A stretch of 36,622 nt of DNA from a virus. The stretch covers positions 1 to 36,622 of the IMG/VR virus record IMGVR_UViG_3300046458_000143, one strand, 5' to 3'. The notes under the pieces were generated by a model, which was not told the DNA's origin, did not search any database, and saw only the letters and a list, made by a program, of their open reading frames with translations. Made by a program: the position numbers and the translations under genes. Within the stretch, counting starts at the first letter, position 1. Every line of letters starts with the position of its first letter. Positions 31,783 through 36,454 of this stretch are shown here, one piece after another.

Positions 31783-31798
31783 TGGTCAAAACTCGATT
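31776..31798 (-). repeat. Linker repeat copy 2 (stop / start element)
   Basis: 23-bp element identical to copy 4. Begins in the stop codon of the YdaT-like gene and ends with the ATG of the mini-ORF. Confidence 0.88.
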
Positions 31799-32351
31799 AA
31801 AAAAATTGCGGCGCTACGGCGCTGATGCTAGCTAGTAGTGGTCCCGCCGCGTCAGCAGGTAACATGTTGAATAAAGCGATTGCTGCTTCCCGGATCTCCT
31901 TCTCAAGCTTTTGCAGCGGTGCGCCCAGCAACTTCGCCTGATGCGCCTCACTGCATTCTTTGATCGCGCTCGCCACCAGCTCGGCTTCCGTTCTGGCGTT
32001 ACTGAGTCCATGCTTCCTAGCGATCTCGATGGGCATAGCAGCGACGATTGCCCCCGATAGCTGCATGACGTAAGCGGTGTATTTCTCCGAGCCACCTTCA
32101 TTTTTCAGATACCGGAATAAATTCTGTTTGTTAACCGCGATACCTCTTCCCCCATCCCTCGCCCACTCCTCGGCCACCAGCTGCGCGATCTTTTCCTGAG
32201 CCTGGCCGGGTAATTCAGACTCCCATTCACGAACGGCAGCAAAAACAGCACGGTGGCGAATGCTGTCTCGTCGAAGAGGCTTAATCTGATTTTCTGATTT
32301 CACAGTGCCTTGGATATTGTGTCTAAGATGGTTGTAAGTGATTGTTTGCAT
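31797..32351 (-). CDS. YdaT-like protein (toxin/CII-position)
   Basis: 184 residues from MQTITYNHLRHNIQG; AAGGAG lies 5 bases before the ATG (32351), better than the GTG at 32357. Central RHRAVFAAVREWESELPG...QLVAEEWARDGGRGI and ...LFRYLKNEGGSEKYTAY, AAMPIEIARKHGL resemble E. coli Rac YdaT (IYHRWLKGE..., ILAILPRELRHRL). Rac YdaT is a DNA-binding regulator that is toxic in excess. The order repressor / YdaS-like / YdaT-like matches Rac, and the gene is in the CII position of lambda. Confidence 0.75.
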   Translation of the reverse strand: MQTITYNHLRHNIQGTVKSENQIKPLRRDSIRHRAVFAAVREWESELPGQAQEKIAQLVAEEWARDGGRGIAVNKQNLFRYLKNEGGSEKYTAYVMQLSGAIVAAMPIEIARKHGLSNARTEAELVASAIKECSEAHQAKLLGAPLQKLEKEIREAAIALFNMLPADAAGPLLASISAVAPQFF

Positions 32352-32353
32352 AT

Positions 32354-32572
32354 TCACTCCTTGACTTCGCTTAGTGGTGGGAAGACATCATCTAATGAAC
32401 AGCGGACTCCTAGTGAATTCAGTGAAGATACAATTCGACGAGAATCCTCCAAACTTGGTGTTCTCAGATTTGACTCATAGTTAGCCAAGCGCGGCTGATT
32501 CCAGCCAATATGTTGTGCTAGAGCAAGTTGGGAAATGTTGGCTTGCTTCCGGTAGTTAGAAATCAGATTCAT
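32354..32572 (-). CDS. Cro/YdaS-like repressor
   Basis: 72 residues from MNLISNYRKQANISQLALAQ; AGGAG lies 7-8 bases before the ATG. Helix-turn-helix: QLALAQHIGWNQPRLANYES, then TPSLEDSRRIVSSLNSLG. It is divergent from the 32676 repressor with the OR region between them, as in lambda cro/cI. It should bind the same 15-bp operators. The frame to 32626 crosses the promoter and operator, so is rejected. Confidence 0.88.
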   Translation of the reverse strand: MNLISNYRKQANISQLALAQHIGWNQPRLANYESNLRTPSLEDSRRIVSSLNSLGVRCSLDDVFPPLSEVKE

Positions 32573-32675: not shown

Positions 32676-33080
32676 ATGAAGACAATCGCAGAACAGATCG
32701 GCGAGCGCATAAAAGCGCTGCGCATTCAAAAGGGTTTAAGCCAAGGCCAGGTAGCTAAATCATGCGGTTGGTCTGGAGCGTCACGTCTTGCAAATTATGA
32801 GTCAGGCTCAAGGAATGTTGGGGCGGATGACGCTATTGCTTTAGCTAAAGTGTTAGGCACAACGCCTAGTGAGCTTCTTTTTGGTGACCGCGGGGATGAA
32901 GGGAAATGGTTAAGCGATAAGCAGCGACTAATGCTTGGTTTATTCAAGCAACTGCCCGATGCGGAGCAAGACAGAATGATTGATTTATTCCAAGTCCGCC
33001 TAAAAGAGATAGATGACTACGTTGAAAAGTATCTTCGTGGCAGATTTAAACCAACAGATGAAGAATCTGATCCAACTTAA
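32676..33080 (+). CDS. Prophage repressor (RacR/CI-like, no protease domain)
   Basis: 134 residues. N-terminal HTH_3 (IGERIKALRIQKGLSQGQVA, CGWSGASRLANYESGSR, ALAKVLGTTPSELLFG); the remaining ~60 residues are helical and charged (AEQDRMIDLFQVRLKEIDDYVEKYL), probably the dimerisation region. The lambda CI-type LexA/S24 domain (Ala-Gly cleavage site, Ser/Lys dyad) is absent, so RecA-stimulated self-cleavage is not expected. It lies between OR and OL, ends at a strong terminator, and should bind both. Confidence 0.88.
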   Translation: MKTIAEQIGERIKALRIQKGLSQGQVAKSCGWSGASRLANYESGSRNVGADDAIALAKVLGTTPSELLFGDRGDEGKWLSDKQRLMLGLFKQLPDAEQDRMIDLFQVRLKEIDDYVEKYLRGRFKPTDEESDPT

Positions 33081-33350: not shown

Positions 33351-33373
33351 AAAAAGCGCCCTTAAGGACGCTT
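33348..33373 (-). terminator. Terminator of the proline-rich mini-gene cluster
   Basis: AGCGTCCTTAAGGGCGCT followed by six T on the minus strand. It is 7 bases past the last mini-gene stop at 33380. Confidence 0.78.
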
Positions 33374-33379
33374 AGCTCT

Positions 33380-33511
33380 TTAAAAAACTGGGTATCCCTG
33401 ACAACCGGGCTTTGGAGGCGGTGGTGGCGCAGGCCTTGGTGAACAAGGAACATGGCCGTTAACATCCGGCTCATAATAATGAAGTTGCTCAAATGAATAC
33501 TTCTGCTTCAT
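33380..33511 (-). CDS. Proline-rich small protein D
   Basis: 43 residues. Begins MKQKYSFEQLHYYEPD and has PRPAPPPPPKP, ending GYPVF; two cysteines. Its ATG follows the stop of the previous mini-gene by one base (TAACATG) and has only a weak ribosome-binding site, so translation should be coupled. It shares the RPxP..PKP motif with the other mini-genes of this cluster. Function unknown; a PxxP peptide ligand is a possibility. Confidence 0.6.
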   Translation of the reverse strand: MKQKYSFEQLHYYEPDVNGHVPCSPRPAPPPPPKPGCQGYPVF

Positions 33512-33512
33512 G

Positions 33513-33602
33513 TTAATCAACCAATAAAGCTATTTTTGGCTTTGGCGCCGGTGGTCTTGGCGTTAATGGAGCATGGTTTGGTACAAATTCTCTGTCATTC
33601 AT
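33513..33602 (-). CDS. Proline-rich small protein C
   Basis: 29 residues: MNDREFVPNHAPL, then TPRPPAPKPK, ending IALLVD. Its ATG overlaps the stop of the two-helix membrane protein (ATGA), strong support for translation. It is followed one base later by the next proline-rich mini-gene. No known family. Confidence 0.65.
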   Translation of the reverse strand: MNDREFVPNHAPLTPRPPAPKPKIALLVD

Positions 33603-34078
33603 TGAACTCTTACCTTTGGTGTTTTTGGCAGGTCTCCAGCAAACCAAGCAAACAATTTTTCAATTGGTCCCAGCGGTTCAGTTGAATCAGTAAGGCCTAG
33701 TTTGTAACAAGTCCTTTTGTAAGCTGCTGACTTCAATAAACCCCAAGCGTTACTATCATTTTCCTGAAGCTTTTGAAGACGACTTAGCAGCACCTTTTCA
33801 TCTAACTGAGATTCCTCAGTCATTAGAGACAGGTATTTTTTTGCCTGCTCTTCTGAAAGGCCTGATTGTTTTCCAAATTGGTAAATAAATTGCACCGCTG
33901 ATAGTGCTGCGATAAACACGCCAAAGATGAACATACCGCTAAAAGGTGAAAAAACCGCGCAACCAAGCACCATCAGTAACGTTGAGATTAATCTGTCTAG
34001 CCTTCCTGTGATCGTACAGGTCATCTTTTCGAGGAAGAAAGAATAATTAATATCAAAGATCATATCGTGCCTGGTCAT
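33599..34078 (-). CDS. Two-helix membrane protein at the sieB position
   Basis: 159 residues from MTRHDMIFDINYSFF; AGGTGAAATA precedes the ATG. After a cytoplasmic-looking N-terminus (~30 residues) come two hydrophobic helices (LISTLLMVLGCAVFSPF and GMFIFGVFIAALSAVQFIY), then a helical cytoplasmic tail (GLSEEQAKKYLSLMTEESQL...LKSAAYKRTCYKLGL). The layout resembles SLATT-type 2TM effectors and, by location between PL and the early + genes in reverse orientation, SieB of P22 and lambda. Similarity to either has not been tested. Superinfection exclusion is an inference. Confidence 0.75.
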   Translation of the reverse strand: MTRHDMIFDINYSFFLEKMTCTITGRLDRLISTLLMVLGCAVFSPFSGMFIFGVFIAALSAVQFIYQFGKQSGLSEEQAKKYLSLMTEESQLDEKVLLSRLQKLQENDSNAWGLLKSAAYKRTCYKLGLTDSTEPLGPIEKLFAWFAGDLPKTPKVRVQ

Positions 34079-34082
34079 TATT

Positions 34083-34184
34083 TCACCTAACCTTTTCTTC
34101 TTTGGGCTTAGGCTCCGGTTTCGGAGCTGGCCGCTCATAAATGGGACTATGTCGCTCTTCATAGCTATAGCCATGCATAGTCAT
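34083..34184 (-). CDS. Proline-rich small protein B
   Basis: 33 residues: MTMHGYSYEERHSPIYE, RPAPKPEPKPKEEKVR. GGAG lies 6 bases upstream of the ATG. Its stop is 4 bases before the start of the two-helix membrane protein. A TAAGAT -10-like box with upstream TTCATG lies at about 34215-34245, a possible promoter. Highly charged and probably unfolded. Confidence 0.65.
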   Translation of the reverse strand: MTMHGYSYEERHSPIYERPAPKPEPKPKEEKVR

Positions 34185-34290
34185 AAAAAACTCCAGTATT
34201 GTTGGGGATATACAGTTCTACAAATCTTATCACACGGTTTGATTGCGCATGAAAATTCGTCAGCATCACTAGTGAATAAGGTCGATATTT

Positions 34291-34371
34291 CTATTCAGCT
34301 GGCTTCGGTTGAGGTGGCGCTGGAGGTCGTTGGTTACTCGGTACATGGAAGTGGTCGCGTTCTGACATCAT
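34291..34371 (-). CDS. Proline-rich small protein A
   Basis: 26 residues: MMSERDHFHVPSNQ, RPPAPPQPKPAE. AAGG lies 5 bases upstream of the first ATG. A much longer reading frame to 34524 exists, but its upstream part has no ribosome-binding site. Same RPPAP..PKP end as the other mini-genes. First gene of the cluster; the promoter is not clear. Confidence 0.5.
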   Translation of the reverse strand: MMSERDHFHVPSNQRPPAPPQPKPAE

Positions 34372-34488
34372 GTTGGCCTTATGTTTTTTAAGGGATAAAC
34401 AGAATACCCGAATCTTTGTTGTTGGGGAATAACAGGATCCACTGAGCCTGAAGTGGCTAAAAGACAGGCATTCATCAAAGGAGGAAAT

Positions 34489-34611
34489 ATGACCGATTTC
34501 GCACGCAAAAAAGCTAGCTGCCAAGCCGTACGCTTAAATCTGTTTGAAGTGCTGGTTCGTAAGCTTTGCTACTTACTCGCACAAAAAGGCAATCCAGAGC
34601 TAAAAGCATGA
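34489..34611 (+). CDS. Small early protein, possibly CIII-like
   Basis: 40 residues: MTDFARKKASCQAVRL, then an amphipathic helix NLFEVLVRKLCYLLAQKG and NPELKA. AAGGAGG lies 5 bases before the ATG, the best ribosome-binding site in this region. The helix has the spacing L-F-E-x-x-x-R-K-L that recalls the conserved CIII core (LLERITRKL) of lambda, an inhibitor of the FtsH protease. The match is short. Its stop overlaps the next start (ATGA). Confidence 0.6.
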   Translation: MTDFARKKASCQAVRLNLFEVLVRKLCYLLAQKGNPELKA

Positions 34612-35208: not shown

Positions 35209-35487
35209 ATGCACGAACTTACACTGTCACCAGCGGAAATTGCAGAAATTACGGGCTATCGGCGTTACACAGAACAGCAACGGCAGCTGCGTTGCCACGG
35301 TATTCCATTTACCACTGATGGAAAAAACAGGCCAATCGTTCTACGTCGAAATCTGGCACCAAATACGACTGAATTACCAAAGGTTGACGAATATGTTGCA
35401 ACAGAACCTAACTTCGACGCCATTTATGGGAAGACCACGCAAGAACCCCAAGGACGCTCAGCTTCCTCCTCGGGTTACCAAAAATAA
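35209..35487 (+). CDS. DUF4224 protein (excisionase position)
   Basis: 92 residues from MHELTLSPAEIAEITGY; GGAGG is 8 bases before the ATG. DUF4224: LTLSPAEIAEITGYRRYTEQ, then LRCHGIPFTTDGKNRPIVLR. This MerR/Xis-like winged helix recognises DNA and overlaps integrase by 62 bases. Its location directly before int suggests a role in excision. The disordered C-terminus extends into the integrase frame. Confidence 0.9.
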   Translation: MHELTLSPAEIAEITGYRRYTEQQRQLRCHGIPFTTDGKNRPIVLRRNLAPNTTELPKVDEYVATEPNFDAIYGKTTQEPQGRSASSSGYQK

Positions 35488-36454
35488 ATATAGCTACGTC
35501 TGGAAGCCAAAAGGGACAAAGCTAAGCGTTACTCTGGGCAAAATTCGTGATACCAGCATGTCAAAGCTTTGGCAGCGTTATGAGGAGGAAAAGGCAAAGC
35601 GCCACGACGTCATGACTTTTTCCAGGCTTTGGGGGATGTTCCTTGCCAGCCCGGCTTTTACTGATTTAGCGATCAGAACCCAGACTGATTATAAGCAGCA
35701 TCAGAAAAAGTTACTGGCTGTGTTTGGAAGTATGAAAGCCGACGATATAAAAATTGAGCAGGTCCGTATTTATATGGATAAACGCGGGATAACCAGTAAA
35801 AACCAGGCCAATCAGGAAGTGTCGAGTATGTCTCGGGTGTTTGGTTGGGGTTTTGAGCGGGGATATGTAAGGGGAAATCCCTGCAGGGGTATTAGAAAGT
35901 TCACACTCGTGGACCGCGACGTATACATCCCAGATGAGGACTACTTAGCGATCTATGAATGCGCCAGAGTGGAAGTGCAGGTAGCAATGGAGATTTCTTA
36001 TCTCTGCGCAGCACGTGAGGGTGATGTATTTGATTTACAGATTCCAGACTTGCGCGCAGATGGCATTTTCATCGAGCAAAACAAGACTGGAAAAAAGCAG
36101 ATCAAGCAATGGACGGCTCGACTGCAGGCAGCTGTCACCTTAGCGAGCAAACACTTTGCGAACAAATCACCATCTGGTTACGTTATTCCCTCTCCCACTG
36201 GTGGAAGAATGAACAAAAAAACGTTCAATACTTGGTGGAATAATGCAAAGAAACAGGCTTCGTTGAAACTGGGGCGCAAAATACCTGGGACGTTTCACGA
36301 TATAAAAGCGAAGGCAATTTCTGATTACGAGGGCAGTAGCAAAGAAAAACAAATGTTTAGCGGACACAAGACAGAAAGTCAGGTTGTCACATATGACAGG
36401 AAGGTGAAAATATCACCAACTTTAAATGCTCCTCCATTGGAGCAGGATAACTAA
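35426..36454 (+). CDS. int: Tyrosine recombinase integrase
   Basis: 342 residues from MGRPRKNPKDAQLPPR. Arm-binding N-terminus, then SAM-like core domain (RLWGMFLASPAFTDLAIRTQ, shortened), and a catalytic domain with Arg in LCAAREGDVFDL, Lys in QNKTGKKQIK, TFHDIKAKAIS (HxxK in place of the usual HxxR), GHKT and the nucleophilic Tyr in QVVTYDRK. The H-x-x-K box occurs in DUF4224-linked integrases of the Rac type, so I expect it to be functional. Integrates and excises the prophage. It reads away from the early genes and ends near the probable attachment site. Confidence 0.94.
   Translation: MGRPRKNPKDAQLPPRVTKNKYSYVWKPKGTKLSVTLGKIRDTSMSKLWQRYEEEKAKRHDVMTFSRLWGMFLASPAFTDLAIRTQTDYKQHQKKLLAVFGSMKADDIKIEQVRIYMDKRGITSKNQANQEVSSMSRVFGWGFERGYVRGNPCRGIRKFTLVDRDVYIPDEDYLAIYECARVEVQVAMEISYLCAAREGDVFDLQIPDLRADGIFIEQNKTGKKQIKQWTARLQAAVTLASKHFANKSPSGYVIPSPTGGRMNKKTFNTWWNNAKKQASLKLGRKIPGTFHDIKAKAISDYEGSSKEKQMFSGHKTESQVVTYDRKVKISPTLNAPPLEQDN

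Follow-up and report, generated by a model that had tools for sequence, protein, structure and literature searches.

The proline-rich microproteins and the two-helix membrane protein encoded side by side in the virus record IMGVR_UViG_3300046458_000143 (36,622 nucleotides (nt), analysed over its whole length and referred to below as the window) belong to a pairing that recurs in many unrelated prophages and that is probably an anti-phage, so far unnamed, two-part module. Within the window the pairing takes the form of five tightly packed open reading frames (ORFs) on the minus strand at 34371-33380, designated genes A to E and encoding 26, 33, 159, 29 and 43 amino acids (aa) respectively, with gene C specifying the membrane protein and the other four the microproteins. 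As judged by sequence comparison, what is conserved from phage to phage is a single microprotein together with the membrane protein, the extra copies being found in the branch to which the window belongs, and the window cluster appears as one cargo of an exchangeable site marked by a leader of the type called PsieB in phage P22. The features of the cluster, in the order in which they are read, are as follows.

34381 to 34469, minus strand: PsieB-type leader/promoter region (GCCTGTCTTTTAGCCACTTCAGGCTCAGTGGATCCTGTTATTCCCCAACAACAAAGATTCGGGTATTCTG...), near-identical in relatives and homologous to P22 and lambda
34291 to 34371, minus strand: gene A, 26-aa microprotein MMSERDHFHVPSNQRPPAPPQPKPAE, an ORF with AAGG upstream and the motif HVPSNQRP
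34199 to 34212, minus strand: partial second copy of the leader repeat (TATATCCCCAACAA), immediately 5' of gene B
34083 to 34184, minus strand: gene B, 33-aa microprotein MTMHGYSYEERHSPIYERPAPKPEPKPKEEKVR, with GGAG and a 6-nt spacer before the ATG and the motif HSPIYERP
33599 to 34078, minus strand: gene C, 159-aa two-helix membrane protein, a member of phrog_6315 and distantly SLATT-type by profile comparison
33513 to 33602, minus strand: gene D, 29-aa microprotein MNDREFVPNHAPLTPRPPAPKPKIALLVD, with an ATGA overlap with C and the motif HAPLTPRP
33380 to 33511, minus strand: gene E, 43-aa microprotein MKQKYSFEQLHYYEPDVNGHVPCSPRPAPPPPPKPGCQGYPVF, starting one base after D, with the motif HVPCSPRP
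33354 to 33373, minus strand: intrinsic terminator AAGCGTCCTTAAGGGCGCTT followed by TTTTT, a hairpin plus T-run

This layout agrees with the sequence-only reading that preceded the analysis, which had placed five ORFs of the same lengths at the same positions and had pointed to the ribosome site of gene B, the overlap of C with D and the one-base gap between D and E. The terminator that it described after E is likewise present as a hairpin and T-run, but it starts 6 nt past the stop codon and not 7 nt.

The mini-genes are, on comparison with their relatives, genuine coding sequence under purifying selection, with ratios of non-synonymous (pN) to synonymous (pS) change of about 0.2-0.6, and they are read as real on the basis of this selection and of a motif common to all four. 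Two related phage contigs found via C (L002 and L003, 66 and 64% identity) keep B, C and D, while gene E is represented by the C-terminal half of a D-E fusion protein, where the core VNGHVPxSPRPAP is conserved and after which a further mini-gene follows. Synonymous change against these contigs is near saturation and amino-acid change is low for gene B (pS 0.67-0.75, pN 0.21-0.23) and gene D (pS 0.72-0.98, pN 0.20); the values for gene E and its counterparts are pS 0.64-0.72 and pN 0.39-0.42, and those for the fused D-E protein compared between L002 and L003 are pS 0.65 and pN 0.12. The proposal that the small frames are coding genes is thus borne out in related phages, where they are conserved with pN below pS rather than scattered with random changes and stops. 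No close DNA orthologue was found for gene A, the status of which rests on the common motif, the AAGG ribosome site and a likeness to the Fels-2-type mini-proteins described below (M-S-[DE]-x-D-x-F-H-V); it also resembles MSDTDKFHVPRKPAPSPEKGQSGDEED of L130.

The motif common to A, B, D and E is H-x-P-x-x-x-R-P, with identical spacing in each. Six instances occur in the six-frame translation of the window, four being the mini-ORFs and two lying elsewhere, against a chance rate of 0.08 per 4 kb in composition-kept shuffles, and exact or looser versions are found in distant relatives (FHVLPRP, FHVLHRP, HMPPYKRP, HVPKNERP and HKPINERP). The related proline motifs originally noticed in the four mini-proteins do therefore mark a single family with a shared proline motif, but the conserved element is H-x-P-x3-[RK]-P and not a generic PxxP.

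Relatives of C, gathered from whole genomes and viral contigs as well as from phages and plasmid-borne prophages, were clustered at 70% identity, and the region upstream of C was judged by eye, a first automatic count having missed arrays farther upstream and proline-poor copies. Among the 37 clusters (<70% identity) so classified by hand, a proline-rich microprotein lies upstream of C in 27, a proline-poor homologue in three, a broken copy in three and none in four. When the first 22 clusters, formed at 80% identity, were put through a fixed automatic test, 17 scored, compared with 11 of 185 control ORFs (6%) in the same loci (binomial 1e-16), and a microprotein was found upstream in none of six canonical SLATT_4 loci. 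The C family is present in 27 of 392 sampled Enterobacteriaceae species, about 7%; alignment-based locus searches gave no locus in the genome contigs with one query alignment (A4) and a single locus with another (A5). These results uphold the suggested tie of the mini-proteins to one membrane protein, in that the genetic linkage extends across clusters, the extra copies seen in the window being a feature of its branch.

The number and arrangement of the microprotein units vary among the relatives. Genes related to D lie downstream of C in L086, L124 and L127, and in L122 (G894, reverse strand, 919-1362) the separate mini-genes are replaced by a single 147-aa chain, located upstream of the C homologue and made up of about six H..P[RK]P units. 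One Arsenophonus plasmid prophage has its upstream mini-gene interrupted by an in-frame stop, and the gene is open in a close relative (L011, L121).

Protein C belongs to phrog_6315, a family of unknown function (E 2.9e-41), and is, as far as profile and model comparison indicate, a distant two-helix protein of SLATT type. It is filed as SLATT-like rather than as a certified member, since by itself the window sequence reaches none of the family cut-offs. The NCBIfam family SLATT_4 (NF033632) is matched by 12 of 21 relatives of C, although the best match (8.1e-6) is probably below its 55-bit cut-off, and hhalign comparison of the C family (A6) with six SLATT_4 proteins gave a probability of 88.9% (E 2.4e-6) over about 90 columns covering both membrane helices. 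An AlphaFold2 (AF2) model (pLDDT 72.6) predicts helices at 3-42 and 50-88 with three short helices after them; its top hits in the viral model set BFVD include several SLATT proteins, with probabilities up to 0.98 and E-values above 0.01. Profile comparison with SieB gave an hhalign probability of 0.9%, with PF14163 matched by 0 of 21 members, which rules C out as a SieB homologue; of the two profiles put forward earlier for the 159-aa protein, SLATT and SieB, only the first is therefore retained.

The leader upstream of A places the cluster in a cassette locus known from other phages. A stretch of ~90 nt ahead of A is nearly invariant across L002, L003, L064-L067, L087 and L013, while the flanks do not align, and the 93-nt leader consensus matches P22 where 'P sieB' is annotated in P22-pbi, as well as lambda, where the match (E 3e-7; 79.7% over 69 nt) precedes the sieB (git) frame. 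Behind this leader lie SieB in P22, HK140 and lambda, phrog_1244 in E. coli O157:H7 EDL933 and Klebsiella phage Kp4882-1, phrog_5286 in SfIV and, directly behind it, a BssS-family protein in Salmonella phage F1055 (L074:1701-1949). It is this occurrence before SieB or unrelated small genes in other phages that identifies the window cluster as one cargo of an exchangeable site. The cluster shares with the other cassettes the leader upstream, the orientation antisense to the early-left operon and the place between cI and the early-left genes, so that its reported location at the sieB position and in the sieB direction is confirmed. A scan for sigma-70 promoters found no good promoter in the leader, and its assignment as a promoter rests on the homology to P22 PsieB. 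The partial leader repeat in front of B points to a later insertion of A at this place, between B and the leader.

Several further observations concern the leader and its surroundings. The leader is kept before several unrelated small genes (L072-L081), and 2662 of 5426 complete E. coli genomes contain a match to it, in many cases a partial one. It contains a direct repeat ~33-34 nt apart around the likely -10, CCCCAACAACAAGGA-like and present twice in most relatives, with CCCCTACAG present twice in P22 and lambda (L076, L079), which looks like a candidate site for a regulator. An Rfam scan gave only weak chance matches at the leader, the C4 and isrK RNAs of L013 lying elsewhere; in that locus (Salmonella plasmid CP074266.1, 207971-212354) a microprotein/C pair behind a PsieB-like leader has two C4 antisense RNAs and several isrK-like RNAs as neighbours. 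In the window, a short conserved frame at 34488-34611 (plus strand, MTDFARKKASCQAVRLNLFEVLVRKLCYLLAQKGNPELKA), of which L002 has a near copy, occupies the opposite (early-left) strand immediately upstream of the leader. The cluster as a whole is flanked by a cI-like helix-turn-helix gene (32676-33080, plus strand) and an integrase gene (35240-36454, plus strand) and reads against both, and a YdaT-family gene (PF06254, E 1e-9) at 31797-32357 on the minus strand follows the cro-like gene in the cII position.

A single-microprotein version of the pairing is found in the Salmonella prophage Fels-2 (L006, NC_010463), as a 26-aa MSDSDNFHVLPRPAPAPKPEPGQDKK and a 152-aa C homologue (phrog_6315). The pair is absent from the annotation, the record placing genes on the other strand there. 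Of 47 loci with Fels-2-type C, 46 retain the 26-aa gene, 8-9 nt upstream; its pN/pS is 0.19, as against values above 1 for the two other frames, and variable sites number 10, 7 and 23 at the first, second and third codon positions. The annotation of P22 gene 17 reads 'allows growth on phage Fels2 lysogen', and, purely as a hypothesis, the Fels-2 pair is a candidate for the function that gene 17 overcomes. The Fels-2 literature consulted does not name the excluding gene, and no paper was found for STM2734, nor for P22 gene 17 together with Fels-2.

The most likely explanation for these observations, at a probability of roughly 0.45, is that the cluster is a superinfection-exclusion (moron) cassette of a temperate phage, composed of a SLATT-type membrane effector, C, and microprotein ligands. 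SLATT proteins are predicted to form pores as effectors in conflict systems (PMC7159879; PMC12483538), and SieB, a cargo of the same promoter, halts macromolecular synthesis during superinfection (PMC10883804). The proposal derives from this pore prediction, from the role of SieB at the same promoter and from the lack of a nucleotide-signal gene beside C, which leaves the microproteins as the only constant candidates for its control. Also in its favour are the linkage of microproteins to C, the purifying selection on them, their shared motif and fused units, the D- and E-specific motif scans described below, the distant SLATT relationship and the PsieB locus. The cassette would be expressed in the prophage from the PsieB-type promoter, against the early-left operon, and C would act as a two-helix inner-membrane effector that permeabilises or depolarises the membrane on superinfection, stopping the infecting phage. 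The proline-rich microproteins would be soluble cytosolic ligands carrying the H-x-P-x3-[RK]-P module, binding the cytosolic part of C, or bridging C to an incoming phage product, and setting C open or closed, with several copies or one fused repeat chain allowing multivalent or multi-trigger control. What we infer in this scheme is that the genes are expressed in the lysogen, that C forms a pore and excludes phage, and that the microproteins bind C. A more specific version, possible if on balance doubtful, is that an undescribed phage microprotein family built on this module gates the SLATT effector directly, multivalent ligands replacing a nucleotide second messenger and the number and sort of modules setting which phages trigger it. 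No paper was found for a proline-rich small protein in superinfection exclusion.

Several results weigh against the exclusion cassette. The window protein C has no match at E <= 1 in Pfam, NCBIfam or PADLOC, its structural matches to SLATT proteins have E >= 0.01, and the fold search found no similar solved structure. The usual SLATT partner, a nucleotide-signal enzyme, is not found beside C, the neighbours being microproteins and ordinary phage genes. Further, the four of 37 clusters with C and no microprotein indicate that C can persist alone.

These last clusters also bear on the alternative of a toxin-antitoxin system, in which C would be toxic in the membrane, the microproteins would be dedicated antitoxins, and the main role would be prophage maintenance or stress response with exclusion secondary. 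A small gene before and close to a membrane gene is the arrangement of many such pairs, and C is of predicted pore-forming type. However, C stays open in the 4/37 clusters without and the 3/37 with a broken microprotein, which an obligatory antitoxin should not allow, and the constant company of antitoxin and toxin expected of a type II system was thus not observed. Since some clusters keep C without an intact microprotein, this explanation is less favoured; multiplied and fused units are also unusual for an antitoxin, and the promoter is that of sieB. It is rated as unlikely, though the strongest of the rival readings.

It is more improbable that the microproteins act on a host target such as the ribosome, a chaperone or another proline-binding protein, like oncocin or drosocin, and are merely co-transcribed with C. 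Their LPRP/RPxP stretches are reminiscent of the core found in proline-rich antimicrobial peptides, and they are probably cytosolic, as none of 30 microproteins has a hydrophobic stretch of 9 residues. Those peptides are strongly cationic, whereas the net charge of the 30 microproteins ranges from -8 to +7, mostly near neutral, with many acidic or neutral. Further, C is the constant neighbour across divergent clusters, and scans of viral contigs with D- and E-specific motifs, covering close versions of the two, returned only known relatives and one GC-rich contig without C that was taken as chance.

A still less probable reading gives the mini-ORF in front of C a purely regulatory role: as a leader peptide with a functionless product, it would couple or attenuate the translation of C, for instance through polyproline stalling and dependence on elongation factor P. 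The mini-ORF does lie a few bases before C in most loci and is proline-rich, three consecutive prolines (PPP) occurring in about one third of the microproteins. Coding constraint, downstream copies and the lack of PPP conservation nevertheless disfavour it: residues beyond proline (H, R-P and the N-terminal acidic part) are conserved while synonymous change is near-saturated, D and E, like the genes related to them, are located downstream of C, and neither the Fels-2-type 26-mers nor B contain PPP, so that a polyproline stalling leader was rejected. In L089 and L122, moreover, the units lie ~95-140 nt upstream in their own frames. That the frames are chance ORFs in a stretch rich in proline codons, as their shortness and low complexity might suggest, is contradicted by purifying selection, conserved motif, linkage and ribosome sites and can be practically dismissed.

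Proline-rich proteins of 25-50 aa, mostly unannotated where annotation is available, are thus a near-constant partner of the C family, including in Fels-2, the copy in which offers a classical test system. The PsieB leader marks an exchangeable cargo site and is usable as bait for further exclusion or moron genes, and the pairing may represent a testable, peptide-controlled alternative to nucleotide-controlled SLATT effectors. Like SLATT_4 (NF033632 / PF18186) of the SMODS and SLOG-associating 2TM effectors (SLATT), C has in its predicted model two long helices, with membrane segments towards the N-terminus, and then short helices, and its structure matches, with E-values above 0.01, include SLATT proteins of giant viruses; the window protein falls below the family cut-offs, and C has no nucleotide cyclase, SLOG, TIR or reverse transcriptase partner, its partner being a proline-rich microprotein. 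The CBASS 2TM effector (PADLOC PDLC00690) is matched weakly by two C-family members (best E 1e-3) and not by the window protein, and no cyclase gene lies beside C. Proline-rich antimicrobial peptides are short, strongly cationic and rich in proline, and the comparison with them is mixed, the microproteins being proline-rich and mostly near neutral in charge. Rz1-type proline-rich lipoproteins are marked by a lipoprotein signal and an outer-membrane location, and the microproteins show no hydrophobic stretch of 9 residues and no visible signal peptide. SieB of P22 and lambda (PF14163) has the same promoter-leader, place between cI and the early-left genes and antisense direction, and is likewise a small two-segment membrane protein, but it has no detectable homology to C and no proline-rich microprotein beside it in the loci examined. 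The Fels-2 pair, by contrast, has both a homologous C and a homologous upstream microprotein, and differs from the window in having a single microprotein and in belonging to a P2-like phage in which no PsieB leader was seen.
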